64,000 nt of DNA, taken from Morinoia aosen. Lineage: Eukaryota; Arthropoda; Malacostraca; Amphipoda; Talitridae. The translations under genes and the position numbers were made by a program. The stretch's first letter is position 1. Every line of letters starts with the position of its first letter. The notes under the pieces are model-generated. The model worked only from the letters and a program-made list of their open reading frames with translations. It searched no databases and had not been told where the DNA came from. The stretch spans positions 9,442,246 to 9,506,245 of the forward strand of contig JASJYW010000026.1 of the NCBI GenBank assembly GCA_030386875.1, given 5' to 3'. This document shows, one piece after another, positions 26,160 through 63,900 of this stretch.

Positions 26160-26163
26160 TATT

Positions 26164-27081: not shown

Positions 27082-27090
27082 AATGTGAGT
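27082..27090 (+). promoter_or_regulatory. Putative 5' splice donor before gag, copy 2
   Basis: AAT|GTGAGT, conserved in all four copies about 120 bp before gag. It would pair with the acceptor-like site at 33575-33585 to produce a short RNA for the 3' ORFs. RNA evidence is needed. Confidence 0.42.
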
Positions 27091-27208
27091 TAAAATTTTT
27101 ATTGTATGTAGAATATTATCATTTGCATGTAGAAAATTTTATTGTGTGTAGAACGTTTTTCTTTTAATGGAAATTGGAGGTTTAAGAATATAAGAAAATT
27201 GAGTGTTT

Positions 27209-33098: not shown

Positions 33099-33159
33099 AA
33101 TTGTCAACCTAGTTTGTAATTGTTCATTCTCAAATATTCCGAATTTGCCATTCCATATA

Positions 33160-33235
33160 TGCGTTCTATGAGTTTTTAGCTTATAAGTGCGTTCTATGAG
33201 TTTCTAGCTTGTAAGAGCGTTCTATGAGTTTCTTT
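33160..33235 (+). repeat. 28-bp direct repeat, about 2.7 units, after pol of copy 2
   Basis: Units begin GCGTTCTATGAGTTT and include TAGCTT(A/G)TAAG; the third is incomplete. Copy 3 has a related pair near 50.88-50.94 kb. Confidence 0.8.
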
Positions 33236-33574
33236 CAAGATTTTATGTATGTCTTGCGTTAGGAAATATTTTGTTGCGAAACACCTTCAGAAGAGATGTT
33301 GAGCTTAGGATGTTGACATACTGTTATTGAGTCATCAAAGTTGTGTTCGTCAAGCCGTCAGCTAGAGTTGATAAACTGAGATGCAATCTTGGAAATGTCA
33401 ACACGAGAGTGCGAGCGCGAAGCCGCGAGATCTGCGCTTCTGCCGCAAATTGTTTAGCAACAATGCTAGGCAGTGTAGTTGAAATGAATGTGTCTTAATG
33501 AGAATGAAGCGTTGCCTTATTATGAAACGACAATTGCTTACTTAAACTTGTGGCCATGCTAATTTCCTGTGTCG

Positions 33575-33585
33575 TATCCTTTCAG
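33575..33585 (+). promoter_or_regulatory. Putative 3' splice acceptor before ORF3, copy 2
   Basis: GTATCCTTTCAG| matches a pyrimidine tract plus CAG, and is identical in copy 3 (50520-50531). No ATG occurs between it and the ORF3 ATG at 33684. A second acceptor-like GCTGTTAG lies just before ORF4 (about 34050-34055). Inferred. Confidence 0.42.
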
Positions 33586-33683
33586 ATTCCTTGGGCGACT
33601 CCTGAACAATTCCAGAACATTGCACATTCCGACTCACAAGATACACTTGTTTAATTCCAATAATAATTCCCTCATAAACCCCG

Positions 33684-33908
33684 ATGTGTAGCGGGGGACA
33701 CGGTCAACTCTGGCGGCCGCAGGAAACAACGATAGTTTTCGGAATCAGGGTACCGAAAGAAGTATTGCAAGAAGCCTACTGCAACTTCACGGTGTTCCTG
33801 AACCTCGATTCCCCGTTGCGTACTCGAATTCAAGTGTATGAATCCAGAGAACACGTCGAACTCGTGTTCATAATCAGAATCGCTGCATTCCCAGCGAACA
33901 TCCAGTGA
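33684..33908 (+). CDS. ORF3, 74-residue protein of unknown function, copy 2
   Basis: Starts at ATG 33684 and is intact, as is its homologue in copy 3 (50197-50421). The N-terminus is MCSGGHGQLWRPQE, followed by alternating hydrophobic/polar stretches that look beta-rich (TIVFGI, FTVFLNL, HVELVFIIRI). There is no signal peptide or obvious membrane segment, and I do not recognise the family. Between the two copies I count about five amino-acid-changing and one silent difference, so protein-level selection is not demonstrated. It is the first ATG-led ORF after the acceptor-like site. It could be a genuine accessory gene or a conserved non-coding stretch that happens to be open. Confidence 0.5.
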   Translation: MCSGGHGQLWRPQETTIVFGIRVPKEVLQEAYCNFTVFLNLDSPLRTRIQVYESREHVELVFIIRIAAFPANIQ

Positions 33909-34013
33909 AGAATTAGGTTTTCTACATCAACGTGGTGCGCAGGGATAGGGGGGCGTGCTCAACTGTACACATTAACCAACAATACTGTTGATTTTTAAAT
34001 TTATAATCTATTT

Positions 34014-34052
34014 ATCACATTTATGTGATTAAAATTAATCACAATTTTAATC
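34014..34052 (+). promoter_or_regulatory. Overlapping inverted repeats just upstream of ORF4
   Basis: ATCACAT-TT-ATGTGAT (34014-34029) overlaps GATTAAAATT-AATCAC-AATTTTAATC (34027-34052, perfect 10-bp arms). Both are kept in copy 3, where one changed base leaves a G-T wobble. They could form alternative RNA hairpins ahead of ORF4. Confidence 0.45.
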
Positions 34053-34085
34053 CCCGCGCTGTTAGTCGCTTTGTTGCCCGCTAAA

Positions 34086-34412
34086 ATGGGAAACAAGGTG
34101 TCCAATCTTAATGTTGACACCATTTTAACTGCCATTAAGGCAAATAATGGTCAAATATCGGATGAACTAATCCGCCACACAGAGGAGACGAGAGTCGACC
34201 TCATCCCTGACCGATTGAGTGACATAATGTTGCTCCGTTACACAATAATCACAATTATAATTACTGTAATGGTTATTTACATTAAACGAGATCTCAACAA
34301 AGTCATCGGACGACTAAGCGGTGAGGACGTAGCATTGCGTCGATCTGCTTGGAAAGAAATCAGTAATAGTCCTAGGCAAATAGTTGCACTTCCACCTCAA
34401 GTTAGCGCGTAA
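34086..34412 (+). CDS. ORF4, small putatively myristoylated single-pass membrane protein, copy 2
   Basis: 108 residues from ATG 34086 in a good context (AAAATGGG). It begins MGNKVSNLNVD: Gly2 and Ser6 fit the N-myristoylation consensus. An acidic/polar region of about 40 residues follows, then a hydrophobic membrane segment (about residues 48-67, IITIIITVMVIYI core). After it come a Lys/Arg stretch (IKRD) and a basic C-terminal tail. Intact in copies 2 and 3, with about nine silent and four amino-acid-changing differences between them, which suggests purifying selection. I do not recognise a named family. It lies where errantivirus-like elements keep env but is far too short for an envelope glycoprotein; a membrane-targeting or release role is speculation. 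Confidence 0.72.
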   Translation: MGNKVSNLNVDTILTAIKANNGQISDELIRHTEETRVDLIPDRLSDIMLLRYTIITIIITVMVIYIKRDLNKVIGRLSGEDVALRRSAWKEISNSPRQIVALPPQVSA

Positions 34413-35436
34413 CGTTACAACGCTAGACTCCCACATTCTGAATCTGAATACCATAGATCAGAATATCATGTTCTGATTATCCAATCTCCAACGGAGTAGT
34501 AACATTCCATGTCTTAGTTTAATTCTATTTTATACGGAAAAAAATCTCTATTATATACGGATAATGTGTTCTATTTTATAGATTATTTTGTTCATGTATT
34601 CACGTCACGTGAAATATTGAGACGAAGTATTATATTGCGAATAAAAAAACCAAATTGCACGCTTGTAGTTTAATTGAATTGAACTATGTTAATTTAAATC
34701 GTAGGACGATTTGAATCCTATTCTACTTTTACCTTGCCAATTGTGGTAATGTAATGTATTGTTTTGCGCATTTAAACCTCTTTTCTATATTTTTATGTAA
34801 CATAGTCTTATGATGGATTTTTCCTTCTTTATTTCCAATTGCATTGAAAATTTTGTTCTCGAAATATGTTAATATGTTAATCCAAAATAAAAATTTTGTT
34901 CTCGATCTGACGGTAGGTGTCCAGTTTGTTCCAGAAAGTGTACCTTATGGAAAGGATTTATTAAGTACGCGTTTTGATGTTTGATTTTGATATTTTGATA
35001 TGTTAATAAAATTTTGTGGTGTATCCATTTGTATCCGAAATATCTGGAGTATCCAAGAATTCTAAGAATCAATTGATAAATAACTTGATAATGAATAAAC
35101 AAATTGTTTGAGCTAAGTGCGTAGAGTGATTATTTGGTTGATTTTGGGTAATAAACCTAGTATTGAATTGACACTAAAATATAATATTGACACTAAAAAT
35201 AATGTTTACCAAGATGTAGGATTACCGTTGAAATTTGTTTATGATGACAGCAAAGGCCATACCTGCCTACCTCCGTTCATAATTCGGAAGCAATTTTGTC
35301 GTACGTTCTGATCTGTGTAATTAACTTGACGAGTTGTAAGATTTATTGATCGTCAAAGGATAATCAATGTGATTGATTGACGTTTTAAAAATATTTTTAT
35401 TGTAATAAAAAATTTTTGTGCTTGGGGGGTCCTAGA
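34413..35436 (+). other. 3' non-coding region of copy 2, with G-run near the 3' LTR
   Basis: AT-rich, about 1 kb. An antisense ORF (34869-35102) also exists in copy 3, but I do not accept it as a gene. The run GGGGGG (35424-35429), 7 bp before the LTR, is the likely polypurine plus-strand primer region; copy 3 has GGGGGGAG at the matching place. Confidence 0.6.
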
Positions 35437-35754
35437 TGTGCGCCCGCCAGGCATATAAATAGAATCGGCGAGAGACATCGTCGTTCATTAGCGGTGGTTT
35501 GCCGTAGAGGTCGCATTTACAAACAGGAGCGTCGCTGTTCAGTAGCGGAAGCTCGGCTGTCGAGAAAGCATCTGTAGAGATCACAGATGCGCTATAGAAG
35601 TAACGAGATTACCTTCCGATCTAAAGATTCTCTACCAATTACGAAGCCTGTGTCAATTCTGAAGTAACAATAAAGGATAACCACATTCGGCTGTTGAGTC
35701 ACTCCCGAACCTCATTCGCGTTAGTTTCGACCTGATACTGAAAAGGCCGGAACA
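35437..35754 (+). repeat. 3' LTR of copy 2 (318 bp)
   Basis: TGTG...AACA ends, followed at once by the CGGC target duplication. It contains AATAAA at 35669-35674, the likely polyadenylation signal, which is AATAGA in the 5' LTR. Confidence 0.97.
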
Positions 35755-44329: not shown

Positions 44330-44829
44330 NNNNNNNNNNNNNNNNNNNNNNNNNNNNNNNNNNNNNNNNNNNNNNNNNNNNNNNNNNNNNNNNNNNNNNN
44401 NNNNNNNNNNNNNNNNNNNNNNNNNNNNNNNNNNNNNNNNNNNNNNNNNNNNNNNNNNNNNNNNNNNNNNNNNNNNNNNNNNNNNNNNNNNNNNNNNNNN
44501 NNNNNNNNNNNNNNNNNNNNNNNNNNNNNNNNNNNNNNNNNNNNNNNNNNNNNNNNNNNNNNNNNNNNNNNNNNNNNNNNNNNNNNNNNNNNNNNNNNNN
44601 NNNNNNNNNNNNNNNNNNNNNNNNNNNNNNNNNNNNNNNNNNNNNNNNNNNNNNNNNNNNNNNNNNNNNNNNNNNNNNNNNNNNNNNNNNNNNNNNNNNN
44701 NNNNNNNNNNNNNNNNNNNNNNNNNNNNNNNNNNNNNNNNNNNNNNNNNNNNNNNNNNNNNNNNNNNNNNNNNNNNNNNNNNNNNNNNNNNNNNNNNNNN
44801 NNNNNNNNNNNNNNNNNNNNNNNNNNNNN
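44330..44829. other. Assembly gap, 500 N
   Basis: Exactly 500 N, a placeholder. Satellite is forward on the left and reversed on the right, so the join orientation is uncertain. Confidence 0.99.
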
Positions 44830-47800: not shown

Positions 47801-48333
47801 GGCCATTCCTAGGCCGAATGCGGTGCAAATCACGTCGTTTGCTGTTTCCCGTGGCGACATAGGCGGAAAGTGCATATTTAGCCGTTTCCACGGTCGACAG
47901 AGCTAAAATGCGTGTTTTGGGCCATTCCTAGGCCGAATGCGGTGCAAATCACATCGTTTGCTGTTTCCCGTGGCGACATAGGCGGAAAGTGCATATTTAG
48001 CCGATTCCCACGGTCGACAGAGCTAAAATGCGTGTTTTGGGCCATTCCTAGGCCGAATGCGGTGAAAATCACGTCGTTTGCTGTTTCCCGTGGCGACATA
48101 GGCGGAAAGTGCATATATAGCCGTTTCCACGGTCGACAGAGCTAAAATACGTGTTTTGGGCCATTCCTAGGCCGAAAGCGGTGAAAATCACGTCGTTTGC
48201 CGTTTCCCGTGGCGACATAGGCGGAAAGTGCATATTAGCCGTTTCCACGGTCGACAGAGCTAAAATGCGTGTTTTAGGCCATTCCTAGGCCGAATGCGGT
48301 GAAAATCACGTTGTTTGCTGTTTCCCGAGGCGA
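44830..48333 (-). repeat. 119-bp satellite array D, reversed (about 30 monomers), error-rich
   Basis: Same monomer on the minus strand. Many single-base losses at homopolymers (GGAAGTGC for GGAAAGTGC, TTTCCGTGG for TTTCCCGTGG, GCTAAATGCG for GCTAAAATGCG) are concentrated here, and the first 50 bases after the gap are garbled. This looks like unpolished long-read sequence. It is interrupted by copy 3 at 48333. Confidence 0.95.
48330..48333 (-). other. Target-site duplication of copy 3 (GCGA), left side
   Basis: GCGA before 48334 and GCGA at 58188-58191 after the element; the intact monomer has it once (CCGTGGCGACATAGG). Confidence 0.92.
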
Positions 48334-48652
48334 TGTTCCGGCCCTTTCAGTATTAGGTCGTAACCAAACGCGAATGAGGTTCGGGAGTGAATCAGATGCA
48401 GTAACGTGGTTATCCTTTATTGTTACTTCAGAGTTGACACAGGCTTCGTAATTGGTAGAGAATCTTTAGATCGGAAGGTAATCTCGTTACTTCTATAGCG
48501 CATCTGTGATCTCTACAGATGCTTTCTCGACAGCCGAGCTTCTGCTACTGAACAGCGACGCTTCTGTTTGTAATGCGACCTCTACGGCAAACCACCTCTA
48601 ATGAACGTCGATGTCTCTTGCCGAGTCTATTTATATGCTCGGCGGGCGCACA
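48334..48652 (-). repeat. 3' LTR of copy 3 (319 bp)
   Basis: On the minus strand TGTGCGCCC...GGAACA. Identical by eye to the 5' LTR. Confidence 0.97.
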
Positions 48653-49689
48653 TAATGCTCCCCCCATACTAAAATTCTTTATGACAATAAAAATTTTAAA
48701 CGTTATTCAAGTAACTTTGATTTTCCCTTGACTATCAATTAATCTTACAATCCGTCAAGTCAATTCGAACAGATCAGAACGTATGACACACTAAAGGCTT
48801 CCGAATAATGAACGGAGGTACGCAGGTATGGCTTTTTCTGTCTTTAGCAAAGCACAAAGGCAACAAAATTCAACGGCAATCCTACTTATCGTTAACATTA
48901 TTTTAGTGTCAATATTATTTTTAGTGTCAATTCAATACTAGATTTATGACCCAAAATCAACCAAATAATCACTCTACGCACTTAGCTCAAACAATTTGTT
49001 CTTTCATTATCAAGTTATTTATCAATTGATTCTTAGAATTCTTGGATACTCCAGATATTTCGGATACAAATGGATACACCACACAATTTTATTAACATAT
49101 CAAAATATCAAAATCAAACATCAAAACGCGTACTTAATAAATCCTTTCCATAAGGTACACTTTCTCGAACAAACTGGACACCTACCGTCAGATCGAGAAC
49201 AAAATTTTTATTTTGGATTAACATATTAACATATTTCGAGAACAGAATTTTCAATGTAATTGGAAAAAAAGAAAAATCCATCATAAGACTATGTTACATA
49301 AAAATATAGAAAAGAGGTTTAAATGCGCAAAACAGTACATTACATTACCACAATTGGCAAGGTAAAAGTAGAATAGGACTCAAATCGTCCTACGATTTAA
49401 ATTAACATATTCCAATTCAACTAAACTACAAGCGTGCAATTTGGTTTTGTTTATTCGCAATATAGTACTTCGTCTCAATACTTCACGTGAATACATGAAC
49501 AAAATAATCTATAAAATATAAATACATAATCCGTATATAATAGAGATTTTTTTCCGTATAAAATAGAATTAATCTAAGACAATATATTCTAAAAGAAGTT
49601 TCGAGGAACACCCTTGGAGATGAAAACTCAGCGTTTAGGTACATGTGTTTTGTTATGTTAATATGAATGTAGAAATTAGCGTTGTAGTG
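48653..49689 (-). other. 3' non-coding region of copy 3 with polypurine tract
   Basis: AT-rich and homologous to 34413-35436. On the coding strand GGGGGGAG (48658-48665) followed by CATTA (48653-48657) precedes the LTR; the G-run is the probable plus-strand primer. No supported gene. Confidence 0.62.
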
Positions 49690-50016
49690 TTAAGCGCTAA
49701 CTTGAGGTGGAAGTGCAACTATTTGCCTAGGACTATTACTGATCTCTTTCCAAGCAGATCGACGCAAAGCTACGTCCTCTCCGCTTAGTCGTCCCACGAC
49801 TTTGTTGAGATCTCGTTTAATGTAAATAACCATTACGGTAATTATAATTGTGATTACTGTGTAAAGGAGCAACATTATGTCACTCAATCGATCAGGGATG
49901 AGGTCGACTGTCGTCTCCTCTGTGTGGCGGATTAGTTCATCCGATATTTGACCATTATTTGCCTTAATGGCAGTTAAAATGGTGTCAACATTAAGGTTGG
50001 ACACCTTATTTCCCAT
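49690..50016 (-). CDS. ORF4, small putatively myristoylated single-pass membrane protein, copy 3
   Basis: 108 residues from ATG 50016, starting MGNKVSNLNVD like its homologue at 34086-34412. The membrane segment (core VITIIITVMVIYI) and basic tail are kept. Amino-acid differences from copy 2 are two Arg-to-neutral changes and two Ile-to-Val changes, against about nine silent ones. The frame is open although pol of the same copy is broken. Confidence 0.72.
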   Translation of the reverse strand: MGNKVSNLNVDTILTAIKANNGQISDELIRHTEETTVDLIPDRLSDIMLLLYTVITIIITVMVIYIKRDLNKVVGRLSGEDVALRRSAWKEISNSPRQIVALPPQVSA

Positions 50017-50196
50017 TTTAGCGGGCAACAAAGCGACTAACAGCGCGGGGATTAAAATTGTGATTAATTTTAATCACACAAATGTGATAAATAAATAAAT
50101 TATAAATTTATAAATCAACAGTATTGTTGGTTAATGTGTACGGTTGAGCACGCCCCCTTATCCCTGCGCACCACGTTGATGTAGAAAAGTAATTCT

Positions 50197-50421
50197 TCAC
50201 CGGATGTTCGCTGGGAATGCAGCGATTCTGATTATGAACACGAGTTCGACGTGTTCTCCGGATTCATACACTTGAATTCGAGTACGCAACGGGGAATCGA
50301 GGTTCAGGAACACCCTGAAGTTGCAGTAGGCTTCTCGTAATACTTCTTTCGGTACCTTGATTCCGAAAACTATCGTTGTTTCCTGCGGCCGCCAGAGTTG
50401 ACCGTGTCCCCCGCTACACAT
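50197..50421 (-). CDS. ORF3, 74-residue protein of unknown function, copy 3
   Basis: ATG at 50421. Same length as the copy 2 homologue, with five amino-acid differences (several to Arg or Gly). It has a beta-rich appearance and no recognised domain. It lies about 100 bp after the acceptor-like site at 50520 with no intervening ATG. Coding status is uncertain because silent differences do not outnumber replacements. Confidence 0.48.
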   Translation of the reverse strand: MCSGGHGQLWRPQETTIVFGIKVPKEVLREAYCNFRVFLNLDSPLRTRIQVYESGEHVELVFIIRIAAFPANIR

Positions 50422-50519
50422 CAGGGTTTATGAGTGAATTATTGTTGGAATTAAACAAGTGTATCTTGTGAGTCGGAATGTGCAATGTTCTGGAATTGTT
50501 CAGGAGTCGCCCAAGGAAT

Positions 50520-50531
50520 CTGAAAGGATAC
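50520..50531 (-). promoter_or_regulatory. Putative 3' splice acceptor before ORF3, copy 3
   Basis: Coding strand GTATCCTTTCAG, identical to copy 2; the AG is the complement of 50520-50521. Confidence 0.42.
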
Positions 50532-50606
50532 GACACAAGAAATTAGCATGGCCAAAAGTTTAAGTAAGCAATTGTCGTTTCATAATAAGGCAACGCTTCA
50601 TTCTCA

Positions 50607-50885
50607 TTAAGACACATTCATATCAACTACACTGCCTAGCATTGTTGCCAAACAATTTGCGTCAGAAGCGCAGATCTCGCGGCTTCGCGCTCGCACTCTC
50701 GTGTTGACATTTCCAAGATTGCATCTCAGTTTATCAACTCTAGCTGACGACTTGACGAACACAGCTTTTGATGTCGCAACAACAGTATGGCAACATCCTA
50801 AGCTCAACATCTCGTCACAAGGTGTTTTCGCAACACAATATTTCCTAACGCAAGACATACATAAAGTCTTAAGAAAGAAACTCAT
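50607..50885 (-). CDS. Possible 92-residue Cys-rich ORF between pol and ORF3, copy 3
   Basis: ATG-led (50885) and open to TAA, with nine Cys including CMSC and GCC. The equivalent stretch of copy 2 (about 33224-33498) has small deletions and in-frame stops, so the frame is not conserved there. It may be a degenerate accessory gene or a chance ORF. No domain recognised. Confidence 0.22.
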   Translation of the reverse strand: MSFFLKTLCMSCVRKYCVAKTPCDEMLSLGCCHTVVATSKAVFVKSSARVDKLRCNLGNVNTRVRARSREICASDANCLATMLGSVVDMNVS

Positions 50886-51008
50886 AGAATGCTCTTACAA
50901 GCTAGAAACTCATAGAACTCACTTACAAGCTAAATACCATTAAAATACATATATGGATGGCAATTTCGGAATATTAGTAATGATCAGTTCCAAACTTGGT
51001 TGACAATT

Positions 51009-54000
51009 TTACCTTCTTAACTTATCTAAAGGCAGTACATGGTTTAAGTTCGTTCGGATAATCTTGTTACCGATCTTAATATCTGCGTAATTTTTACCTA
51101 GCTTTTCAATGATACCTGGTCCTAAGAAATTTATCTGTAATTTGTGTTTTTTGGCATGATTTTTTTACTAGTACACGGTCCGTCACTTTTAAATTTTTAT
51201 CGCGACGTTTCATATTTCTATAGGCAGTTCTTTCGATTGTGGCGTTAATGATCGCATTTCTAATATTGTTCACTACAATAGATGACTCGGTAAATTTTTG
51301 TTTGTGAACATCTTCATATGTAGTCGCAACATTGAAGTCTTCTAAATTAGTAGAACTGATATACACACACGTATCTCTACCGAAAACCGTGTATGCGGGT
51401 GTATCGCCTATAGTTTCATTGAAACTATTGTTAATCGAATTCTCCACAATATCCAATAGTCTATCCCACTCATTATGAGTAAGAAAATTTAGATATAACT
51501 TGAGCAGGTGTCGAATTTTTCCATTACATCGCTCAACAATACCATTAGAAAAAGGGGAATAAGCCAGAACTTCCCTTTTTAAGATAGAAAGTCCTTTTGT
51601 GAAATTTCTTACATTAGATGATTTAAATTCTAGAGCATTGTCGGACAACAACACGTCCGGGGTACCGAACAAACAGCAAAAATTCCATAGGCAATCTGTA
51701 ACAGTCTCTGTACATCGGTCACTAGTCGAATATAATTTAACAAAACGTGAAAATAGGTCGATAATTACAAGAATATATTTGTTACCATTGTCCGTCATTG
51801 GTAATGGACCGTAGAAGTCCATGCTGACCGTTTGAAAACATCGTGTTCCAATTGGAGCATTTAGAATTTTAATCGGCGTCGGTATTCGTGATTTTAGAAT
51901 CTTACAGATGTCACAAGATTCAACAATTTTGCGTGTAATTGTCCGTTCGTACGGGTGAAAATATTTTAATTTAAACTTAAACAAGGTATGATTCAAATCT
52001 GTATGGGACAAATTATGGATGAATAGAATTGTCTTGTGCAGCAGAGTATACGGCACCACAATAGTCAGAATGGTGCTAGGTCTGTTGTCAATTCTTCGTC
52101 TTTTATACAAAATGTCATTCATAATCAGAAATTCATTCATGTCAGTATTGGAAACTTTTGTTGCATTCTCTAGGGCATCCTTCATTTCAGAACAAAAGGG
52201 ATCACTATCTTGTTCACGTTTAAATTCGTCTAACGACCAGTTGTCATTAATACTTGAATGGTCTGTAGTCGTATTAACTTTATCCAGTCTGCATAAGCTC
52301 GTTTTCTGTCTGCTATTAAAGTCACTGGGTTCACGTCTGGGGTCTGTCTGTTGTTCAGCAGTACTGTTGTTGTTTCTTCCGTCCTTACGTCCTGGCATTG
52401 TCTTCTCGAACTCTTCCTCAGTCACGGGCTTGTTACATTTGTTACCCGCAGCAGCGGCTTGCAGCCTGGTTACAACGGGAAAAGTCTCTACATCAGGGGT
52501 TAATTCAGAACACTCTAATAGTTCTCATTCTGTTAAAGGATTTTTGTCATGATTTAATCTACTTAATGCATCGGCGGCACTATTCGCTTTCCCAGAAAAA
52601 TACTTTAATTTGGCATCAAAAGCTTGCACATAAATACTCCATCTAGCGAGCGTGTTGTCTTCAGGCAATTTCTTTGAAAATAATGGAACTAAAGGCTTAT
52701 GATCGGTGTAAATGACCAGATCATAGCCTAAAACAAGATATTTAAAGTACTTCAACGCTTCAACTATAGCAAACATCTCCTTTTTAGTTGTTGAGTATCT
52801 TCGTTGGGTGGAATTCAACGTTTTAGAGAAAAATGCGACAGGTCTCATGTTTCGAACCTTATCAGTAGATGATTGAAGTAAAACAGCTCCTATGCCGACA
52901 TTCGATGCATCACAAAACAGATGAAAATTTTGATCGAAGTTTGGGTGACTTAAGGTTGTATGTTCACATAACTCATCCTTTAGTTTTTCAAAAGCATTTT
53001 GACAATCCTTAGTCCAATTGAATTCAACATTTTTCTTCAGATAATTATAGAGCGGGCTTGCGATACTCGCAAAATTTTTTATGTACCTACGAAAGAAATT
53101 TACTAGACCTAGGAATGACTGTAATTCTTTCACATTCTTAGGAATTTCTAAATTCTTTACTTTGTCAGTACCGGTGCTTCTGGTTCCCATTCCACTAATG
53201 GAATGTCCTAGATATTCAATCTCGTTATTGAAAAAATCACATTTTTCAGTTTTGATTGACAATCTAGCGTTTCTTAATAGTTCAAGTACAACTTTTATAT
53301 CGGCAAGATGCTGTGCCTTCTCCTTAGAAAATATGAGCACGTCGTCCATAAAGACGAAAGATAGTTTTCCTAGAACAGGAGATAGCGTTTGCGTCATTAC
53401 TGACTGGAAATATGCAGGTGAGGTTTTTAAACCGAATGGTAAGCGGTTGAACTCGTATTTTCTACTACCAACTGTAAATGCGGTTATTTCTTTACTCTCA
53501 TCGGTCAGTGTAATATTATGATATCCTGACCTAAGATCTAGTTTCGAAAAATATTTTTGACCATTTAAACTATAGAGAAGCTCGTCCACTCTCGGCAGAG
53601 GGAATGATTCTTCATAAATTACCTCATTTACTTTGCGAAAGTCAACCACCGGACGTATGGTTCCATCTTTCTTATGAACTACAATTATCGGTGAATTATA
53701 AGCTGAAATCGATGGTCTAATAATTCCGTCGTCTAACATTTTTTCGTTAACGACTTTCAAGTCTTCCATGTAACGGTGGGCAATACGATAGGGAGGGACA
53801 TTTACAACATCCACGTTAGGTTTCAAGCGTATTTTGTATGGTTTAATCGCAGCAGCTGAGATCGATTCATTGTCTATAGTAATAACGTCTCTGAATTCAT
53901 TCAACAAACTCAGCAATTCAGGCTTCATTTCGTCATCGTTACACTTGATATCATCGTTATTTAATTTCCGCCGACCACGGGCTATTTCTTTGGAATCAGA

Positions 54001-55427
54001 AACGTACCCTTCGTCGACAACTCCTGTGATCCCGACAGATTTACTATTAGTGTCATTCTTCTCGACATCTAAATGACTGTCCTGAACAACACTCGTTGCC
54101 TGCACAAAAGTACTCAATCCTCCCTTTAATTCTCCTTGTACATCTGACAAGTAAACTTCGGATTCAACATGATCCTTCTCCACTTTTTCTAAAGTACTTA
54201 TAATTGCATTCTCTGGTAAAACAATCGCTCTGTCGGAGCTATTAATTAACAACAACGGAATCTTTCTCCTATTGTTAACTCTCACAATTGCTTCTGCGAC
54301 ACAAATGCCTTCTTTTAAAGTTGCTTTCTTTATTATGTATTCTCCATTTTTACACTTTCCAACATGTCCAACATGTTTCAAAATTACATTGGGAGCAATC
54401 TCCACTTGTCGAGTATGCACTCTTAACGGCCTTGGCCTTGTGTGGGAATTGGTAACTGCAACTACGCCTCGAACAGGCTGATTTTCTCTCTTACCATCCC
54501 TTATTACTTCCTCGCCTGCTCTCTCAGCAATGCACGTCCTTTTCTCTCTTAGCTTATTTAGGACTTTTTTCTTAGCTCTGGACGTAATCGTGTCTGCCAT
54601 GAGACACTCAGTATTCTCTATTAAATACTCGAGACACTCTGTCTTTCTTTTTTTTCGTCGTTTTACCTCTGCAAAGGGGATTCTCTCGTCTTTGATAATT
54701 AAACATCTTTGTTTTAAGTCTACAACGGCGTTCTGGTCTAATAAATCACGCCCAATAATGACGTCATAATTGTAAATACCATCTTTAATTATTAAAGCAT
54801 TTGTCTTTAAACTTACTCCGTTTTTTAACTTCAGGACAAGCTCCACCTCGCCCTCAACATTACTCTTAGCGTTAACGCCTTTTATAGTCAGAGAACTTGG
54901 CTTCACGTCATTACTTATCTCACTTATTCTGTGGTAGCTGATTAGGCACTTCTCTGATCCTGAATCAATCAATGCATTCCACAGGTCTGCATCTTTTCTA
55001 AGCACAATCGTGGGCTTATGACTTTTTCGTATTACAAATAATTCATTTTGTCCTGTGACTTCAACTTCTTCATCTTCTTCGTATTTACAAACGTTCGTCG
55101 TCACATGGCTTTCTATTATTTTGTGGCTTTCTATTTCAGTGCCATGAGCATTCAAATCATCACTTAATTCCGCCTCTCCCAGCGATTCATATCTATTTTC
55201 ACACTTAATTAGTGGATCTATCATCTCAACATTTTTAATGAGGGAATCTTCAGACATGTTTAACACATCAACTCTCTCGACATTTTTAACGAGGGAATCT
55301 TCAGCACCAGAATTCTCCTCGGGTTCACAGGGATTTGTCGCCGTAGAGTCATACTTAGTTATTGTAGTTTAATTTTTACCTTTGACGTTATTTCTATCGG
55401 AAATGAAATCGTCTCTGCTGTTTACGC
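51009..55427 (-). pseudogene. pol: pol of copy 3: protease, reverse transcriptase, RNase H, integrase; two stops and one frameshift
   Basis: The same domain order as copy 2 is readable: DSG protease, LDLRSGYHN and FMDD reverse transcriptase, FHLFCDAS RNase H, and D,D35E integrase. Lesions: TAA at 55369-55371 (copy 2 has GAA), upstream of the protease; TGA at 52525-52527 (copy 2 has AGA), between RNase H and integrase; and a run of seven A on the coding strand near 51168 where copy 2 has six, shifting the integrase C-terminal GPY/F-like tail out of frame (early end at 51106; homologous end at 51009). The two nonsense codons are substitutions and therefore unlikely to be read errors. Confidence 0.93.
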
Positions 55428-56891
55428 TAAAAAATCATTGCCACTGTTAGTTTGGTAAGTTTCTACCTGGCCTTTTTCTGACATACGAGTTTTATACTGT
55501 CCTCGCGCACGGACACGGTCCGGTCTGCCTGGTCTGTTTAAATAGTCTCTTCTGGACCTACAATCTCTTGCGTAGTGTCCTAACTTATTACAACGAAAAC
55601 AAACTACATCACGCAGTGAATGCTCGGTGGCTGTCTGAGATGAACCTGGTTTGTACCAATCAGTCAGTTTCCTAGCCACGGTGGTTACCGACTCGCTTTG
55701 TCCTTGACAGACACACACATGATTGTAACACTTCGAGCAACGCTTTGTTTCAGCTGTCTCCAATGCCTGGACTTCTAGAGTCCCCAATTCACGATCTCCA
55801 AAAAAAGATTTTACGTGAGGTCTAGCACGGAAAGTTGGTCTCGGGAAACTTGGTCTCCAGTAGGGCCTACGCGTCCTACCTCTACCTTGAAATCCGCCTC
55901 TTGTCATTGTGTGCACTTCGGCCTCGTCACAGGCAGCTTCGAAGTTTGATTCGGACGAATGATCATCCTCAGCACAATAGATTTCCATAGATCTCTCAGA
56001 TCGAGTCGCTAATATTTGCTTATCCTCGGGAAAATTCCTAATTACAGTCACAAGTTTCTGAAGAAGCTCTTCCGACGATTTGAAGGGTTTATTGAATAGT
56101 TTTTTTGAAAAATCCTCTGTTACTAGAGGGTTGATGATGGCCATAGCTAACGCAACAACTAAAGTATTCTCGACATACTTATCGAGGGCAACAGGATCGG
56201 GACAATTTACTACATAGGTGTGGGCTCTGTTCGAACACTCCGGGCTGGTCATTATTCTGTGGGTAAATTTACGGATTTTGGATAGGATAGCCACAAACTG
56301 GCTAGCTAATGCATCGTTTCTTTTCAGGCGTACGTTATTTAGATCACAGGCGACCGCGTGCAAAAATCTTTCACCTTTTGATACGTAGATATTTTCTAAC
56401 AGGTGCACGACTTCTTCGAAACTTAATTCATAACCTTCACTAATTATGGAAGCTACGACCGTATTGAAGTCGCCTACCCGCTTGTCTGCAGTTCGCAACA
56501 GTAAGTTTAGTTTAGCTTCCTCAGAGTTATCTGACAGCATATTGAAATATGCTCGCACATTCTTTATATGCGTTTCTAGTGACTTATTTTCTATGAAGTC
56601 CGGGTCGTTTCTACGTTTTCTACCACGGTACTGCGGTAGATCCTGCCCAGCAATTACAGCACTAGGTATCGGACCGACAATAGAAGTCGTCACACTCGTA
56701 ACCGTACTAGTTACAGAGCTAACTGCGGTAGTGACTGCACTGGTAACAGGGGTGACAGTTGTGGTGGTCGCCATCGTGTTAGGTACCGAAATCGACTTCG
56801 CGGAAAAAATAGGAACTGAAACCCTTCCTACTCGAGTCACGTAAGGGGTGGTTCTTATGTACTCGTATTCGTCAGAGTCACTGTCCGACAT
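55422..56891 (-). CDS. gag: Gag polyprotein of copy 3, intact
   Basis: 489 residues from ATG 56891 (MSDSDSDEYEY). The frame is open 12 codons further upstream but without an ATG. It has a Thr/Val-rich segment after the acidic N-terminus, a central capsid-like region, and an Arg/Pro-rich stretch (GGFQGRGRTRRPYWRP). A Cys cluster CSKCYNHVCVC and a CCHC knuckle CFRCNKLGHYARDC (about 431-444) follow. No lesion is seen. It would form particles and bind RNA. Because it sits in an element with dead pol, it could still supply Gag to other copies. Confidence 0.94.
   Translation of the reverse strand: MSDSDSDEYEYIRTTPYVTRVGRVSVPIFSAKSISVPNTMATTTTVTPVTSAVTTAVSSVTSTVTSVTTSIVGPIPSAVIAGQDLPQYRGRKRRNDPDFIENKSLETHIKNVRAYFNMLSDNSEEAKLNLLLRTADKRVGDFNTVVASIISEGYELSFEEVVHLLENIYVSKGERFLHAVACDLNNVRLKRNDALASQFVAILSKIRKFTHRIMTSPECSNRAHTYVVNCPDPVALDKYVENTLVVALAMAIINPLVTEDFSKKLFNKPFKSSEELLQKLVTVIRNFPEDKQILATRSERSMEIYCAEDDHSSESNFEAACDEAEVHTMTRGGFQGRGRTRRPYWRPSFPRPTFRARPHVKSFFGDRELGTLEVQALETAETKRCSKCYNHVCVCQGQSESVTTVARKLTDWYKPGSSQTATEHSLRDVVCFRCNKLGHYARDCRSRRDYLNRPGRPDRVRARGQYKTRMSEKGQVETYQTNSGNDFLA
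55428..55434 (-). promoter_or_regulatory. -1 frameshift slippery site, copy 3
   Basis: Coding strand GA[T TTT TTA] GCG TAA, identical to copy 2. Confidence 0.78.
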
Positions 56892-57009
56892 AAGCACAAA
56901 AATAATCCTATATTCATAAACCTCCAATTTCCATTAAAAGAAAAATGTTCTACACACAATAAAATTTTCTACATGCAAATGATAATATTCTACATACAAT
57001 AAAATTTTA

Positions 57010-57018
57010 ACTCACATT
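57010..57018 (-). promoter_or_regulatory. Putative 5' splice donor before gag, copy 3
   Basis: Coding strand AAT|GTGAGT, the same position relative to gag as in copies 1 and 2. Confidence 0.42.
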
Positions 57019-57518
57019 TTCAGTGGACTTAAACCAGGCTAATGCTAATCCAGCACACAAAGTCAAAAAGTCAAGCTCGTGAAGGTCGACGGCAACTGAA
57101 CGGAACAAGCCGCTCCAGCTTACTCATATATGCCGGAGAACAATGGCCGAGAATAGCAACAACTTCCTTCAATTGTTCTGGAGAACAATGGACTACCTCT
57201 CCACACAACGTTTCCGCGTAGACGCTCGCTCTCTCACTCCCGGGAATCAGCTTGCTTACTGCGCTTTCGCAATGCCTACGCCGCTCGCTCTCCCGCTACC
57301 AGGAACCAGCTTGCGCTTGCAATGCTTACTGCTTACTGCTTAGCTTCCTACTCATTATTTTATAATGATGATGTATAATCATTAATTTGAGCGCATGCTT
57401 ATTTTTAATTTGCAAGCAACAATATCGGCGTACACTTAACTTAATATTTTGGCGCTGCGTAGCTCTCGTAGATCTTCTCGTTGCAGATGACGGTGCGTAA
57501 ATGCGTAGATCTCGTCGA

Positions 57519-57538
57519 CAGACCAGGTTGTTGGTCTG
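57519..57538 (-). promoter_or_regulatory. Conserved leader hairpin, copy 3
   Basis: CAGACCA/TGGTCTG stem with a 6-base loop, identical in base sequence to copy 2 on the coding strand. Confidence 0.4.
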
Positions 57539-57846
57539 GACCCCTCACTTCATCTTCTCCTTTGAGTAGCGATGTAAATTTTCGATTTTTTCTCCCTCGA
57601 AGTGTTTCTTTCTCGAAGAGTTTCTTTCTCGAAGAGTTTCTTGGAAAGCACTTCGATTTTTTGCGCTGACGTCTTTCTTCCTTTTCTCGATGCTCTGAAG
57701 TAATGTGATAACTATGCGACGTTACTCCAAACAGGGTGACACTCCTCACATTTAAAATCACGGATCAGCAGAACCGAAGATCAATTCTTGATATCTTTCT
57801 TCATCAATGGGGCAATGTGGCAATGTGGATATCTTTAATGTGGCAT

Positions 57847-57864
57847 CCCCATACACGGGCACCA
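57847..57864 (-). other. Primer-binding site region of copy 3
   Basis: Coding strand TGGTGCCCGTGTATGGGG, four bases inside the LTR. tRNA not identified. Confidence 0.55.
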
Positions 57865-57868
57865 AATA

Positions 57869-58187
57869 TGTTCCGGCCCTTTCAGTATTAGGTCGTAACC
57901 AAACGCGAATGAGGTTCGGGAGTGAATCAGATGCAGTAACGTGGTTATCCTTTATTGTTACTTCAGAGTTGACACAGGCTTCGTAATTGGTAGAGAATCT
58001 TTAGATCGGAAGGTAATCTCGTTACTTCTATAGCGCATCTGTGATCTCTACAGATGCTTTCTCGACAGCCGAGCTTCTGCTACTGAACAGCGACGCTTCT
58101 GTTTGTAATGCGACCTCTACGGCAAACCACCTCTAATGAACGTCGATGTCTCTTGCCGAGTCTATTTATATGCTCGGCGGGCGCACA
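57869..58187 (-). repeat. 5' LTR of copy 3 (319 bp)
   Basis: Same ends as the other LTRs; the TATAAATAG box is close to the U3 start. Followed directly by GCGA and satellite. Confidence 0.97.
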
Positions 58188-58298
58188 GCGACATAGGCGG
58201 AAAGTGCATATTTAGCTGTTTCCACGGTCGACAGGGCTTAAATGCGTGTTTTGGGCCATTCCTAGGCCGAATGCGGTGAAAATCACGTCGTTTGCTGT
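58188..58298 (-). repeat. Single satellite monomer between copies 3 and 4
   Basis: 111 bp of reversed monomer carrying the right-hand GCGA of copy 3 and the left-hand CTGT of copy 4. The two insertions are therefore independent and one monomer apart. Confidence 0.95.
58295..58298 (-). other. Target-site duplication of copy 4 (CTGT), left side
   Basis: CTGT here and again at 60998-61001. The intact monomer reads TTTGCTGTTTCCC with one copy, so the whole inverted-LTR structure went in as one unit. Confidence 0.9.
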
Positions 58299-58616
58299 TG
58301 TGCGCCCGCCAGGCATATAAATAGGATCGGCGAGAGATATCGTGGTTCATTTGAGGTGGTCTGCCGTAGAGGTCGCTTCTACAAACAGAAGCATCGCTGT
58401 CAGTAGCTGAAGCTCGGCTGCCGAGAAAACATCTGCAGAGATCACAGATGCGCTACAGAGTTACGAGATTACCTTCCAATCTAAAGACTTCCTACCAATT
58501 ACGAAGCCTGTGTCAATCCTGAAGTAACAATAAAGAATACTACGTTGCTGCAACTATTTCACTCCCGAACCTCATCCGCGTTTGGTTACGGCCTAATACT
58601 GAAAAGGGCCGGAACA
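58299..58616 (+). repeat. Left LTR of copy 4 (318 bp, forward)
   Basis: TGTGCGCCC...GGAACA. It matches the right LTR as an inverted repeat with one visible difference (ACCTTCCAA versus ACTTTCCAA). Contains TATAAATAG and AATAAAG. Confidence 0.96.
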
Positions 58617-58622
58617 TATTCT

Positions 58623-58640
58623 TGGTGCATTGGCCGGGAA
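58623..58640 (+). other. tRNA-Gly-type primer-binding site of copy 4, left end
   Basis: TGGTGCATTGGCCGGGAA is the exact complement of the last 18 nt of a tRNA-Gly(GCC) with CCA, from T59 to A76 (tRNA sequence recalled from general knowledge). It differs from the right-hand site of the same element (TGGTGCCCGTGTATGGGG) after the first six bases. Confidence 0.85.
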
Positions 58641-59678
58641 ATTTGGTCTCCAGTAAGGCCTCCGCGTCCTACCTCTACCTTGGAATCCGCCTCTTGTCAT
58701 TGTATGCACTTCGGCCTCATCACAGGCAGCTTCAAAGTTTGATTCGGACGAATGATCATCCTCAGCACAAAAGATTTCCATAGATCTCTCAGATCGAGTC
58801 GCTAATATTTGCTTATCCTCGGGAAAATTCCTAATTACAGTCATGAGTCTCTGAAGGAGCTCTTCCGACTATTTGAAGGGTTTATTGAATAGTCTTTTTG
58901 AAAAATCTTCCGTCACTAGAGGGTTGATGATGGCCATAGCTAACGCAACAACTAAGGTGTTCTCGACATACTTATCGAGGGCAACAGGATCGGGACAATT
59001 TACTACATAGGGGTGGGCTCTGTTCGAACACTCCGGGCTGGTCATTATTCTGTGGGTAAATTTACGGATTTTGGACAGGATAGCCACGAACTGGCTAGCT
59101 AATGCATCGTTTCGTTTCAGTCGTACGTTATTTAAATCACAGGCAACCGCGTGCAAAGATCTTTCCCCTTTTGAAACGTAGATATTTTCTAACAGGTGCA
59201 CGACTTCTTCGAAAGTTAATTCGTAACCTTCACTGATTATGGAGGCTACCACCGTATTAAAGTCGCCTACCCGCTTGTCTGCAGTTCGCAATAATAGATT
59301 GAGTTCAGCTTCCTCTGAATTGTCCGAAAGCATGTTGAAATACGCTCTCACATTTTTTATATGCGTCTCTAGTGATTTGTTTTCTATGAAGTCAGGGTCA
59401 TTTCTTCGTTTTCTACCTCTGTACTGCGGTAGATCCTGTCCAGCAATTACAACACTAGGTATCGGACTGACAATAGAAGTCGTCACAGCGGTAACCGTAC
59501 TAGTTACAGAGCTAACTGTTGTAACGGCTGCACTGATAACAGGGGTAACAGTGGTCGCCATCGTGCTAGGTATTTGAGGAATTGATAATCTGAAAACAGG
59601 GACGGATAACCTACCAAAACGGGTCAAATACGGAATGGTTCTTATATACTCGTATTCGTCAGAGTCACTGCCTGACAT
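58641..59678 (-). pseudogene. gag: gag of copy 4, 3'-truncated and with a nonsense codon
   Basis: Starts at ATG 59678 (MSGSDSDEYEY). It is open through the capsid-like region to TAG at 58869-58871 (TCG in copy 3), then continues in the same frame to the RRPYWRPNF region. There it runs straight into the tRNA-Gly-type site and the left LTR. The zinc knuckle, pol and the 3' ORFs are absent. The joining point has a 7-base match (CGGGAAA) with the same place in gag of copy 3. Confidence 0.93.
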
Positions 59679-60656
59679 AAGCACAAAATAATCCTATATT
59701 CATAAACTTCCAATTTCCAGTAAAAGAAAAATGTTCTACACACAATAAAATTTTCTACATGCAAATGATAATATTCTACATACAATAAAATTTTAACTCA
59801 CAACTCACATTTTCAGTGGACTTCCGTGGACTTAAAACAGGCTAATTGCTAATTAATCGTGAAGGCTGGCACCACTCTGAATAGAGGTAAGCTGCTTCAG
59901 CTTACTTTTATATGCCAGAGACAATGGGCGCCAGAGGACAATGGGTGCTAGAGACAATGGCTACAACTTCCTTTAACTGTTTCAGAGAACAATGGACTAC
60001 CACTTCCTTCAATTGTCCTCACAGACAATGGACTACCGCCTCACACAATGCTTCCGCGTAGACGCTCGCTCTCTCACTCGCGAGAATCAGCTTGCTTACT
60101 GCGCTTTCGCAATTCTTTCGCTAGTTCTCGCCGCTACCCGGAATCAGCCTACGCTTGCAATGCTTTACTGCTTAACTTCCTACTTATTAACTTTATAATG
60201 ATGATGTATAATCATTAATTTGAGCGCATGCTTATTTTTAATTTGCAAGCAACATTATCGGCGTACACTTAACTTAATATTTTGGCGATGCGTAGATCTC
60301 GTAGTTCTTCTCGTTGCAGATGACGGTGGGTAGATGCGTAGATCTCGTAGTTCTTCTCGTTGCAGATGACGGTGGGTAGATGCGTAGATCTCGTCGACAG
60401 ATCAGGATGTAAATTTTGAAGCGATGAAGAGTTTCTTTCTCGAAGAGTTTCTTGGAAAGCACTTCGATTTTTTGCGCTGACGTCTTTCTTCCTTTTCTCG
60501 ATGCTCTGAAGTAATGTGATAACTGTGCGACGTTACTCCAAACAGGGTGACACTCCTCACATTTAAAATCACGGATCAGCAGAACTGAAGATCAATTCTT
60601 GATATCTTTCTTCTCAATGGGCATTGAGGCAATGTGGATATCTTTAATGTGGCACT
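59679..60656 (-). other. Leader of copy 4
   Basis: Homologous to the leaders of copies 2 and 3. The donor-like GTGAGT is duplicated (AACTCACAACTCAC on the plus strand near 59795-59808). A 46-bp segment is tandemly duplicated at about 60291-60391 (GTAGATCTCGTAGTTCTTCTC units). No gene is seen. Confidence 0.65.
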
Positions 60657-60674
60657 CCCCATACACGGGCACCA
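60657..60674 (-). other. Primer-binding site region of copy 4, right end
   Basis: Minus strand TGGTGCCCGTGTATGGGG, five bases inside the LTR, identical to copy 3 and unlike the left end of this element. Confidence 0.6.
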
Positions 60675-60679
60675 GAATA

Positions 60680-60997
60680 TGTTCCGGCCCTTTTCAGTAT
60701 TAGGCCGTAACCAAACGCGGATGAGGTTCGGGAGTGAAATAGTTGCAGCAACGTAGTATTCTTTATTGTTACTTCAGGATTGACACAGGCTTCGTAATTG
60801 GTAGGAAGTCTTTAGATTGGAAAGTAATCTCGTAACTCTGTAGCGCATCTGTGATCTCTGCAGATGTTTTCTCGGCAGCCGAGCTTCAGCTACTGACAGC
60901 GATGCTTCTGTTTGTAGAAGCGACCTCTACGGCAGACCACCTCAAATGAACCACGATATCTCTCGCCGATCCTATTTATATGCCTGGCGGGCGCACA
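60680..60997 (-). repeat. Right LTR of copy 4 (318 bp, reversed)
   Basis: Minus strand TGTGCGCCC...GGAACA; its U3 end abuts CTGT and satellite. Confidence 0.96.
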
Positions 60998-63900
60998 CTG
61001 TTTCCCGTGGCGACATAGGCGGAAAGTGCATATTTAGCCGATTCCACGGTCGACAGAGCTAAAATGCGTGTTTTGGGCCATTCCTAGGCCGAATGCGGTG
61101 AAAATCACGTCGTTTGCTGTTTCCCGTGGCGACATAGGCGGAAAGTGCATATTTAGCCGATTCCACGGTCGACAGGGCTAAAATGCGAGTTTTTGGCCAT
61201 TCCTAGGCCGAATGCGGTGAAAATCACGTCGTTTGCTGTTTCCCGTGGCGACATAGGCGGAAAGTGCATATTTAGCCGTTTCCACGGTCGACAGAGCTAA
61301 AATACGTGTTTTGGGCCATTCCTAGGCCGAATGCCGTGAAAATCACGTCGTTTGCTGTTTCCCGTGGCGACATAGGCGGAAAGTGCATATTTAGCCGATT
61401 CCACGGTCGACAGAGATAAAATGCGTGTTTTGGGCCATTCCTAGGCCGAATGCGGTGAAAATCACGTCGTTTGCTGTTTCCCGTGGTGACATAGGCGGAA
61501 AGTGCATATTTAGCCGTTTCCACGGTCGACAGAGCTAAAATGCGTATTTTGGGCCATTCCTAGGCCGAATGCGGTGAAAATCACGTCGTTTACTGTTTCC
61601 CGTGGCGACATAGGCGGAAAATGCATATTTAGCCGACTCCACGGTCGACAGAGCTAAAATGCGTGTTTTGGGCCATTCCTAGGCCGAATGCGGTGAAAAT
61701 CACGTCGTTTGCTGTTTCCCGTGGCGACATAGGCGGAAATTGCATATTTTGCCGTTTCCACGGTCGACAGGGCTAAAATGCGTGTTTTGGGCTATTCCTA
61801 GGCCGAATGCGGTGAAAATCACGTCGTTTGCTGTTTCCCGTGGCGACATAGGCGGAAAGTGCGTATTTAGCCGATTCCACGGTCGACAGAGCTAAAATGC
61901 GTGTTTTGGGCCATTCCTAGGCCGAATGCGGTGAAAATCACGTCGTTTGCTGTTTCCCGTGGCAACATAGGCGGAAAGTGCATATTTAGCCGATTCCACG
62001 GTCGACAGAGCTAAAATGCGTGTTTTGGGCCATTCCTAGGCCGAATGCGGTGAAAATCACGTCGTTTGCTGTTTCCCGTGGCGACATAGGCGGAAAGTGC
62101 ATATTTAGCCGTTTCCACGGTCGACAGGGCTAAAATGCGTGTTTTTGGCCATTCCTAGGCCGAAAGCGGTGAAAATCACGTCGTTTGCTGTTTCCCGTGG
62201 CGACATAGGCGGAAAGTGCATATTTAGCCGTTTCCACGGTCGACAGAGCTAAAATGCGTGTTTTGGGCCATTCCTAGGCCGAATGCGGTGAAAATCACGT
62301 CGTTTGCTGTTTCCCGTGGCGACATAGGCGGAAAGTGCATATTTAGCCGATTCCACGGTCGACAGAGCTAAAATGCGTGTTTTGGGCCATTCCTAGGCCG
62401 AATGCGGTGAAAATCACGTCGTTTTGCTGTTTCCCGTGGCGACATAGGCGGAAAGCGCATATTTAGCCGATTCCACGGTCGACAGAACTAAAATGCGTGT
62501 TTTGGGCCATTCGTAGGCCGAATGCGGTGAAAATCACGTCGTTTGCTGTTTCCCGTGGCGACATGGGCGGAAAGTGCATATTTAGCCGTTTCCACGGTCG
62601 ACAGAGCTAAAATGCGTGTTTTGGGCCTATCCTAGGCCGAATGCGGTGAAAATCACGTCGTTTGCTGTTTCCCGTGGCGACATAGGCGGAAAGTGCATAT
62701 TTAGCCGTTTCCACGGTCGACAGAGCTAAAATGCGTGTTTTTGGCCATTCCTATGCCGAATGCGGTGAAAATCACGTCGTTTGCTTTTTCCCGTGGCGAC
62801 ATAGGCGGAAAGTGCATATTTAGCCGATTCCACGGTCGACAGGGCTAAAATGCGTGTTTTCGGCCATTCCTAGGCCGAATGCGGTGAAAATCACGTCGTT
62901 TGCTGTTTCCCGTGGCGACATAGGCGGAAAGCGCATATTTAGCCGATTCCACGGTCGACAGGGCTAAAATGCGTGTTTTTGGCCATTCCTAGGCCGAATG
63001 CGGTGAAAATCACGTCGTTTGCTGTTTCCCGTGGCGACATAGGCGTAAAGTGCATATTTAGCCGTTTCCCACGGTCGACAGAGCTAAAATGCGTGTTTTG
63101 GGCCATTCCTAGGCCGAATGCGGTGAAAATCACGTCGTTTGCTGTTTCCCGTGGCGATATAGGCGGAAAGTGCATATATAGCCGTTTCCACGGTCGACAG
63201 AGCTAAAATGCGTGTTTTGGGCCATTCCTAGGCCGAATGCGGTGAAAATCACGTCGTTTGCTGTTTCCCGTGGCGACATAGGCGGAAAGTGCATATTTAG
63301 CCGTTTCCACGGTCGACAGAGCTAAAATGCGTGTTTTGGGCCATTCCTAGGCCGAACGCGGTGAAAATCACGTCGTTTGCTGTTTCCCGTGGCGACATAG
63401 GCGGAAAGTGCATATTTAGCCGATTCCACGGTCGACAGGGCTGAAATGCGTGTTTTTGGCCATTCCTAGGCCGAATGCTGTGAAAATCACGTCGTTTGCT
63501 GTTTCCCGTGGCGACATAGGCGGAAAGTGCATATTTAGCCGATTGCACGGTCGACAGAGCTAAAATGCGTGTTTTGGGCCATTTCTAGGCCGAATGCGGT
63601 GGGAATCACGTCGTTTGCTGTTTCCCGTGGCGACATAGGCGGAAAGTGCATATTTAGCCGATTCCACGGTCGACAGAGCTAAAATGCGTGTTTTGGGCCA
63701 TTCCTAGGCCGAATGCGGTGAAAATCACGTCGTTTGCTGTTTCCCGTGGCGACATAGGCGGAAAGTGCATATTTAGCCGATTCCACGGTCGACAGAGCTA
63801 AAATGCGTGTTTTGGGCCATTCCTAGGCCGGATGTGGTGAAAATCACGTCGTTTGCTGTTTCCTGGGGCGACATAGGCGGAAAGTGCATATTTAGCCGAT

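Follow-up and report, generated by a model that had tools for sequence, protein, structure and literature searches.

A retrotransposon insertion with U3 termini at both ends and a tRNA-Gly copy in one arm in the amphipod Morinoia aosen

Olsen and Swanstrom reportedly described aberrant retroviral DNAs that contain palindromes or inverted LTRs in 1985, and Shoemaker and co-workers are said to have described autointegrants in 1980. Autointegration, in which integrase attacks the element's own cDNA, is a known source of inverted retroviral DNAs. In such products, the inverted LTRs arise during or just after reverse transcription, as they would in the case reported here. However, those DNAs are said to be unintegrated, whereas the product described here is integrated and flanked by a target duplication.

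Other work concerns the second strand transfer. Synthesis of plus-strand strong-stop DNA halts 18 nt into the primer tRNA, because the base at tRNA position 58 is modified. The plus strand thereby acquires a copy of 18 nt of the primer, and the resulting site reveals the tRNA that was used, as in alternative tRNA-Lys5 priming of HIV (PMC4549124); failed second strand transfer was proposed for HIV with mutant primer tRNAs (PMC3832253). A blocked second transfer would also apply to our case, which shares the copied site that names the tRNA, but the available portions of these two papers describe neither a U3/U3 product nor its integration. In HIV-1 proviruses with asymmetric LTRs, plus-strand strong-stop DNA was proposed to switch to the copy on the other RNA genome; according to the available text, this DNA reaches the usual primer site and both LTRs keep a direct orientation, whereas those described here are inverted (PMC9278108). 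DIRS-1 resembles our locus in having inverted LTRs around gag-related sequence. As far as the available text goes, however, DIRS-1 uses a tyrosine recombinase and its inverted LTRs are normal, while in the present family an integrase is encoded and direct LTRs are the rule (PMC5633606). Within the titles and abstract openings of the open-licence literature, a search of weak scope, no report of integrated U3/U3 insertions was found, and the accessible parts of PMC3187697, PMC12025293 and PMC5041404 held nothing on this question beyond tRNA sequence.

Here, we analyzed a unit at positions 58299-60997 of a 64,000-nucleotide stretch of M. aosen DNA (contig JASJYW010000026.1; hereafter, the window). 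We confirmed that it is a real U3/U3-ended insertion of a Ty3/gypsy-type retrotransposon.

Anatomy, target site and family of the insertion

The unit is bounded by two 318-bp LTRs in inverted orientation, and both of its outer termini are the U3 end TGTGCGCC. The LTRs are identical at 317 of 318 positions; the one mismatch, at LTR position 175, is a variant found in the right arm only and private among the LTR copies compared. Complementarity of the arms extends slightly past the LTRs, giving arms of 324 nt, and then stops: beyond the left LTR, TATTCT is followed by TGGTGCATTGGCCGGGAA, and beyond the right LTR, TATTC is followed by TGGTGCCCGTGTATGGGG. Between the arms there is only antisense gag and leader, together with a single ordinary primer-binding site (Table 1). 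No pol is present, and all sequence past mid-gag has been lost. The gag piece gave no Pfam match. The leader contains an exact 46-bp tandem duplication (60287-60378).

The insertion lies in a 119-bp satellite, with TTTGCTGT on its left and CTGTTTCCCG on its right. The same satellite without an insert, for which one unit was read directly, reads TTTGCTGTTTCCCG; comparison with the two flanks shows that the CTGT duplication is real. A preliminary description of this DNA had reported the inverted LTRs with U3 outward and a single difference, the flanking CTGT and the loss of everything past mid-gag, and all of these observations held on re-measurement. Both outer ends are thus U3 ends that meet the 4-bp duplication typical of the family flush, as in a U3/U3 insertion.

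Seven insertions could be placed within the satellite. L002 occupies the same position as L005 and L016 lies one base off, so that exact coincidence of position occurred in 1 of 21 pairs. A hotspot at CTGT was rejected as an explanation, since this site was used once among the seven, although in a repeat array the argument is not absolute. The satellite arrays also contain two runs of exactly 500 N (11655-12154 and 44330-44829), which are probably assembly gaps; both are distant from the unit.

Table 1. Features of the unit and of the insertions compared with it (coordinates in the window)
Feature	Coordinates	Strand	Remarks
Target duplication CTGT, left copy	58295-58298	.	satellite phase 0-3
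Left LTR, U3 outward, TGTGCG...GGAACA	58299-58616	+	
Spacer TATTCT, LTR to tRNA copy	58617-58622	+	right-arm counterpart TATTC
Complement of tRNA-Gly(GCC) 3' end, exactly 18 nt	58623-58640	+	19th base mismatched
CGGGAA, overlap of tRNA copy 3' end and antisense gag	58635-58640	+	12/14 aligned relatives
gag 5' part, antisense relative to left LTR	58641-59684	-	
gag reading frame	58869-59684	-	ends where el2 frame continues
Untranslated leader	59685-60656	-	
Primer-binding site TGGTGCCCGTGTATGGGG, commonest in family	60657-60674	-	35/76 readable 5' LTRs
Right LTR, U3 outward	60680-60997	-	
Target duplication CTGT, right copy	60998-61001	.	
el2, complete ordinary element, LTRs 319/319	48334-58187	-	duplication GCGA, 48330-48333 and 58188-58191
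el3, complete ordinary element, LTRs 317 matches, 1 mismatch, 1 gap	25841-35754	+	duplication CGGC
Unit described here	58299-60997		duplication CTGT
L047, U3/U3			duplication CAAC
L058, U3/U3			duplication CCAT
C20 unit, U3/U3			duplication TCCC
L146, U3/U3			duplication ATCG
L046/L063, U3/U5, large internal inversion			exact GCAG, ends by eye
L147, U3/U5, large internal inversion			exact CAGC, ends by eye
L145, U3/U5, large internal inversion			exact AGCG, ends by eye

Two complete elements in the window, el2 and el3, are ordinary Ty3/gypsy insertions that share with the unit the kind of LTR (~91% alike) as well as gag, leader, primer site and 4-bp duplication. The unit differs from them in its two outer U3 ends, its one inverted LTR, the absence of pol and the tRNA-Gly copy in one arm. 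It and el2, which has a target duplication of its own, are separate insertions of the same family with 111 bp of satellite between them, so that the left LTR does not continue into a separate element, a possibility raised in the preliminary description.

Pfam matches in el3 comprised RVT_1 and RNase H within 28848-31928 and rve within 31968-33098. We assigned the family to the Ty3/gypsy type because of this order, with reverse transcriptase and RNase H preceding the integrase core; the assignment was made on el3 as a relative, since the unit itself is without pol. The same integrase core rules out a DIRS element. Both el2 and el3 have LTRs of the form TG...CA and a 4-bp duplication, as expected of the family. 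The sole anomaly of the unit with respect to this type is that its LTRs are not in direct orientation; it is otherwise typical of the family. Among collections of viral and prokaryote sequences, no relative of pol was confirmed, and the pattern of LTR and primer site had no match in viral contigs.

Ordinary copies elsewhere in the genome had flush 4-bp duplications in 9 of 10 further independent LTR pairs, which were built from 22 of 30 loci surveyed. In the tenth pair (L025/L018, C17), a TATG duplication was accompanied by six extra bases, TCTAGA, kept beside the U3 end; these resemble the end of a polypurine tract and perhaps represent an unprocessed U3 end. The difference of 1 in 318 between the arms, together with the 40 scored LTR copies that share at least 98% identity, would mean that the family was recently active, with an age that is only loosely bounded.

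The tRNA-Gly copy and the inner joint

The left-arm sequence TGGTGCATTGGCCGGGAA is the complement of the final 18 nt of tRNA-Gly(GCC), with 18 positions matching and the next one not. This identity was assigned with an animal tRNA-Gly sequence from elsewhere; the 3' end of tRNA-Gly(GCC) is printed in a table of PMC8001983. In the window, this was the only match to the tRNA-Gly complement at up to three mismatches, and 4 of 100 shuffles gave such a match. The left arm, in which U3-R-U5 leads into exactly 18 nt of complement to the (animal) tRNA-Gly, shows the pattern of plus-strand strong-stop DNA. Compared with the family primer site TGGTGCCCGTGTATGGGG, the tRNA-Gly copy matched at 9 of 18 positions, with the first six (TGGTGC) contiguous and the last two unmatched.

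We next compared this site with those of other copies. A pattern consisting of CCGGAACA and then TGGTGCATTGG within 12 nt had one exact match in the 1.99-Gb genome, which was the unit itself; this exact pattern is blind to divergent LTR ends, such as TCGGAACA. We also fetched 79 5' LTRs, defined as same-strand neighbours 4-20 kb apart, of which 76 had primer sites that a script could read. The tRNA-Gly site was present in 0 of these 76, the nearest having 7 mismatches in 18, while the right-arm site TGGTGCCCGTGTATGGGG was present in 35. Two of the 76 (L129 and L130) belong to a U3/U3 unit on C20, described below, and to its mirror, and have an ordinary primer site. For the three that the script could not read, inspection by eye gave an ordinary site in L135 and none in L085 or L117. 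No further element carrying a tRNA-Gly site was found among the 76 5' LTRs or by the exact genome-wide pattern, and we saw no sign in these sequences that the site might be a normal variant of the family.

The 76 copies (L065-L143) contained 9 different spacers between LTR and primer site (TATT, TTTC, TTC, TAAT and others) and 12 different primer-site 18-mers, as though more than one primer were used or synthesis began imprecisely. Some of these sites resemble complements of tRNA-Ile, a candidate for the usual primer.

Antisense gag starts directly after the 18-nt tRNA copy, 24 nt past the end of the LTR. The preliminary description had placed this junction after the primer-binding site. It does lie past the LTR end, but the left piece is the 18-nt copy of tRNA-Gly and not the family site, which points to a failed second strand transfer. 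The six bases that end the tRNA copy, CGGGAA, are also found at the joint in the gag of relatives. We compared 17 relatives (14 fetched loci with el2, el3 and el4), of which 14 could be aligned and three loci gave no match; 12 of the 14 carried the hexamer, or 11 of 13 distinct rows once an identical duplicate was removed (L041 = L042 over 1001 bases). With el2 as a stand-in for the source RNA, at least six exact bases to the 3' end of the primer were found at 4 of 9189 positions of the internal region, the used site included. Against priming on gag, the used site ranked only 8th of 181 candidates by whole-duplex energy, and a site in el2 with seven exact bases stayed unused. The left spacer is also one T longer than the right one, for which this origin does not account. 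What the DNA shows directly is the arrangement of the parts, the tRNA copy, its overlap with gag and the target duplication.

U3/U3 insertions elsewhere in the genome

The preliminary description had proposed a genome-wide search for inverted LTR pairs with 4-bp duplications. In the assembly (1.99 Gb, 29 contigs), the U3-end pattern had 575 exact matches, and we examined 260 distinct ends (100/575, 100/109 and 100/138 listed from three patterns), which form a non-random sample by contig order and subfamily. Neighbours within 20 kb among these 260 comprised 105 same-strand pairs, a few of which belong to aberrant units themselves, 12 pairs with U3 outward (11 without the C20 mirror) and 2 with U5 outward. 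Sequence was obtained for each of the 11. The search yielded at least five U3/U3 insertions with exact 4-bp duplications among the 260 of 575 ends listed, that is, the present unit and four more (Table 1). The 150-bp flanks of L047, L058, the C20 unit and L146 gave no satellite match.

The verified U3/U3 insertions account for 5 of the 11 outward pairs, and six others were not counted. L046/L063, L145 and L147 are U3/U5 insertions with large internal inversions, and both U5-outward pairs fall within L145 and L147. L050/L051 looks nested, because the stretch that precedes its inner joint recurs past its right U3 end. L045, with arms alike at 286 of 288 positions, has only three matching bases (GTG) and lies in a tandem repeat, and L148 is an outward U3 pair whose left end was unfetched. 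No U5/U5 insertion was seen among the 260 of 575 U3 ends listed, in a scan that misses units with U3-less arms, so that the asymmetry between U3/U3 and U5/U5 is only suggestive.

The C20 unit is present twice (L060 and L061), as mirror images ~528 kb apart that are identical over the 1192 bases compared, owing to either a recent inverted segmental duplication or an assembly duplication. Another segmental or assembly duplication is found on C12, where L041/L042, and also L026/L027 and L023/L024, are identical copies with identical flanks ~0.84 Mb apart.

The inner joints of these units vary. In L058, the LTR and TTTCT pass into antisense gag via CATTTCT, and the overlap can be read directly because this gag stretch is present once more in the same element; deeper within the unit, leader sequence gives way abruptly to pol. 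Similar to the present unit, L058 would fit a plus-strand 3' end that primes on gag RNA. In L047, TTC and a run of ten T separate the LTR end from antisense R-U3, and the T-run adjoins the point downstream of AATAAA at which a poly(A) tail would be expected to start. This suggests that the T-run is a copied poly(A) tail and the template a polyadenylated RNA, so that L047 would fit priming on poly(A). L047 also contains ~1.8 kb (~655-2485), starting near the end of R, that did not match the el3 and 58299-60997 references and is possibly a copied host transcript. At C20, the joint is LTR-TTTCTAGATA-LTR', a blunt U5-U5 joint; since its LTRs are alike at only 311 of 319 positions, they come from different molecules. 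It looks like the end-joining of two cDNAs, and on our reading two U5 cDNA ends, each with one base from the last A of the tRNA, may have been joined bluntly. This blunt joint means that the U3/U3 class has more than one origin. In L146, pol is fused to ~45 bp of inverted U3, and the joint of L045 has, by eye, ~10 nt of filler. Common to the U3/U3 units is a second U3 terminus on an inverted piece of LTR, integrated with the usual stagger.

Origin of the U3/U3 insertions and their significance

The account of the unit that we consider probable is that strong-stop DNA primed by tRNA-Gly failed in the second transfer and primed on gag RNA, and that the resulting U3/U3 DNA was integrated. Minus-strand synthesis on one RNA would have been started by tRNA-Gly and not by the usual primer; the 3' end of tRNA-Gly pairs in an unbroken run with just the first six bases (TGGTGC) of the commonest primer site. 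The plus-strand strong-stop DNA would then have consisted of U3-R-U5 and 18 nt from tRNA-Gly. The second strand transfer would have failed because this tail fits the family primer site at 9 of 18 positions with its last two bases unpaired; mis-priming by tRNA-Gly would thus explain the failure in this unit. The free 3' end, ...CGGGAA, may have annealed to the gag of a genomic RNA, from which synthesis in the minus sense would have proceeded through gag, leader, primer site, U5 and R. The U3 could have been added by fold-back on the strand's own LTR or, alternatively, by an ordinary first transfer with polypurine-primed plus-strand synthesis. With a U3 terminus at each end, integrase would have joined the two to the target, and the stagger of 4 bp would have been that usual for the family. 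The priming, the transfer failure, the completion of U3, the use of two U3 ends and this enzymatic order are what we infer from the structure, and the exact duplications suggest catalysis by the element's own integrase. The proposal in the preliminary description, that an aberrant cDNA was made and then integrated by two U3 ends, remains the best fit, and four further units with exact duplications now stand beside it. Its corollary, that integrase can dispense with a U3/U5 pair, likewise finds support in the five cases, insofar as integrase was the enzyme at work.

We also considered whether the joint was made by the host, such that microhomology end-joining linked two cDNA pieces, one an LTR resembling strong-stop DNA and the other a 5' fragment with a break in gag, before integrase used the two U3 ends. 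An overlap of 5-6 nt is typical of such joining, and the exact blunt U5-U5 joint between the non-identical LTRs of C20 and the filler at L045 are in keeping with it. However, the joint in our unit falls exactly at the natural strong-stop 3' end and the overlap is at that 3' end; L058 has the same look with a shorter tail, and the T-run of L047 indicates an RNA template. We regard this origin as unlikely. Autointegration, despite its record as a source of inverted retroviral DNAs, was rejected: it predicts an LTR terminus at the inner joint, whereas the joint follows the tRNA copy 24 nt beyond the LTR end, and we give it almost no credence.

Two explanations would deny that a single U3/U3 molecule was inserted. 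Two independent insertions in opposite orientations could have been fused by a deletion inside the satellite, with the matching CTGT being a coincidence. The target is a tandem repeat in which L002 and L005 share a position and L016 is one base off, but such a fusion requires an element with a tRNA-Gly site, of which no other was seen among the 76 5' LTRs or by the exact pattern, and a deletion endpoint exactly after an 18-nt primer site together with a match in satellite phase; moreover, the four units comparable to it, each with an exact duplication, are located outside the satellite. This makes the fusion very improbable. Equally little weight was given to an assembly or library artefact, such as a fold-back or chimeric read. 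Inverted chimeras are common artefacts of sequencing and assembly, and the unit sits in a satellite array, with assembly gaps at other places of the window. A fold-back, however, would account neither for an 18-nt tRNA complement confined to one arm nor for a 4-bp duplication that keeps the satellite phase, and exact duplications were found in five units.

Returning to the failed transfer, we are slightly inclined to view U3/U3 insertions of this family as a standing minor class, in which failed plus-strand DNA would regularly prime on RNA (gag or poly(A)) or join another cDNA, and integrase would readily pair U3 ends in germ cells with the normal stagger. The mis-primer would be one entry point into this class, leaving the tRNA copy as its signature.

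These insertions are natural and comparable end products of a failed step of reverse transcription that is usually studied in vitro, and in one of them the probable wrong primer can be named, tRNA-Gly. Five cases in one genome indicate that integration through two U3 termini, accompanied by a normal duplication, is possible. Outward-facing U3 pairs with 4-bp duplications provide a genome-wide test for any LTR family, one that measures both the rate of strand-transfer failure and the strictness of integrase towards its two ends.
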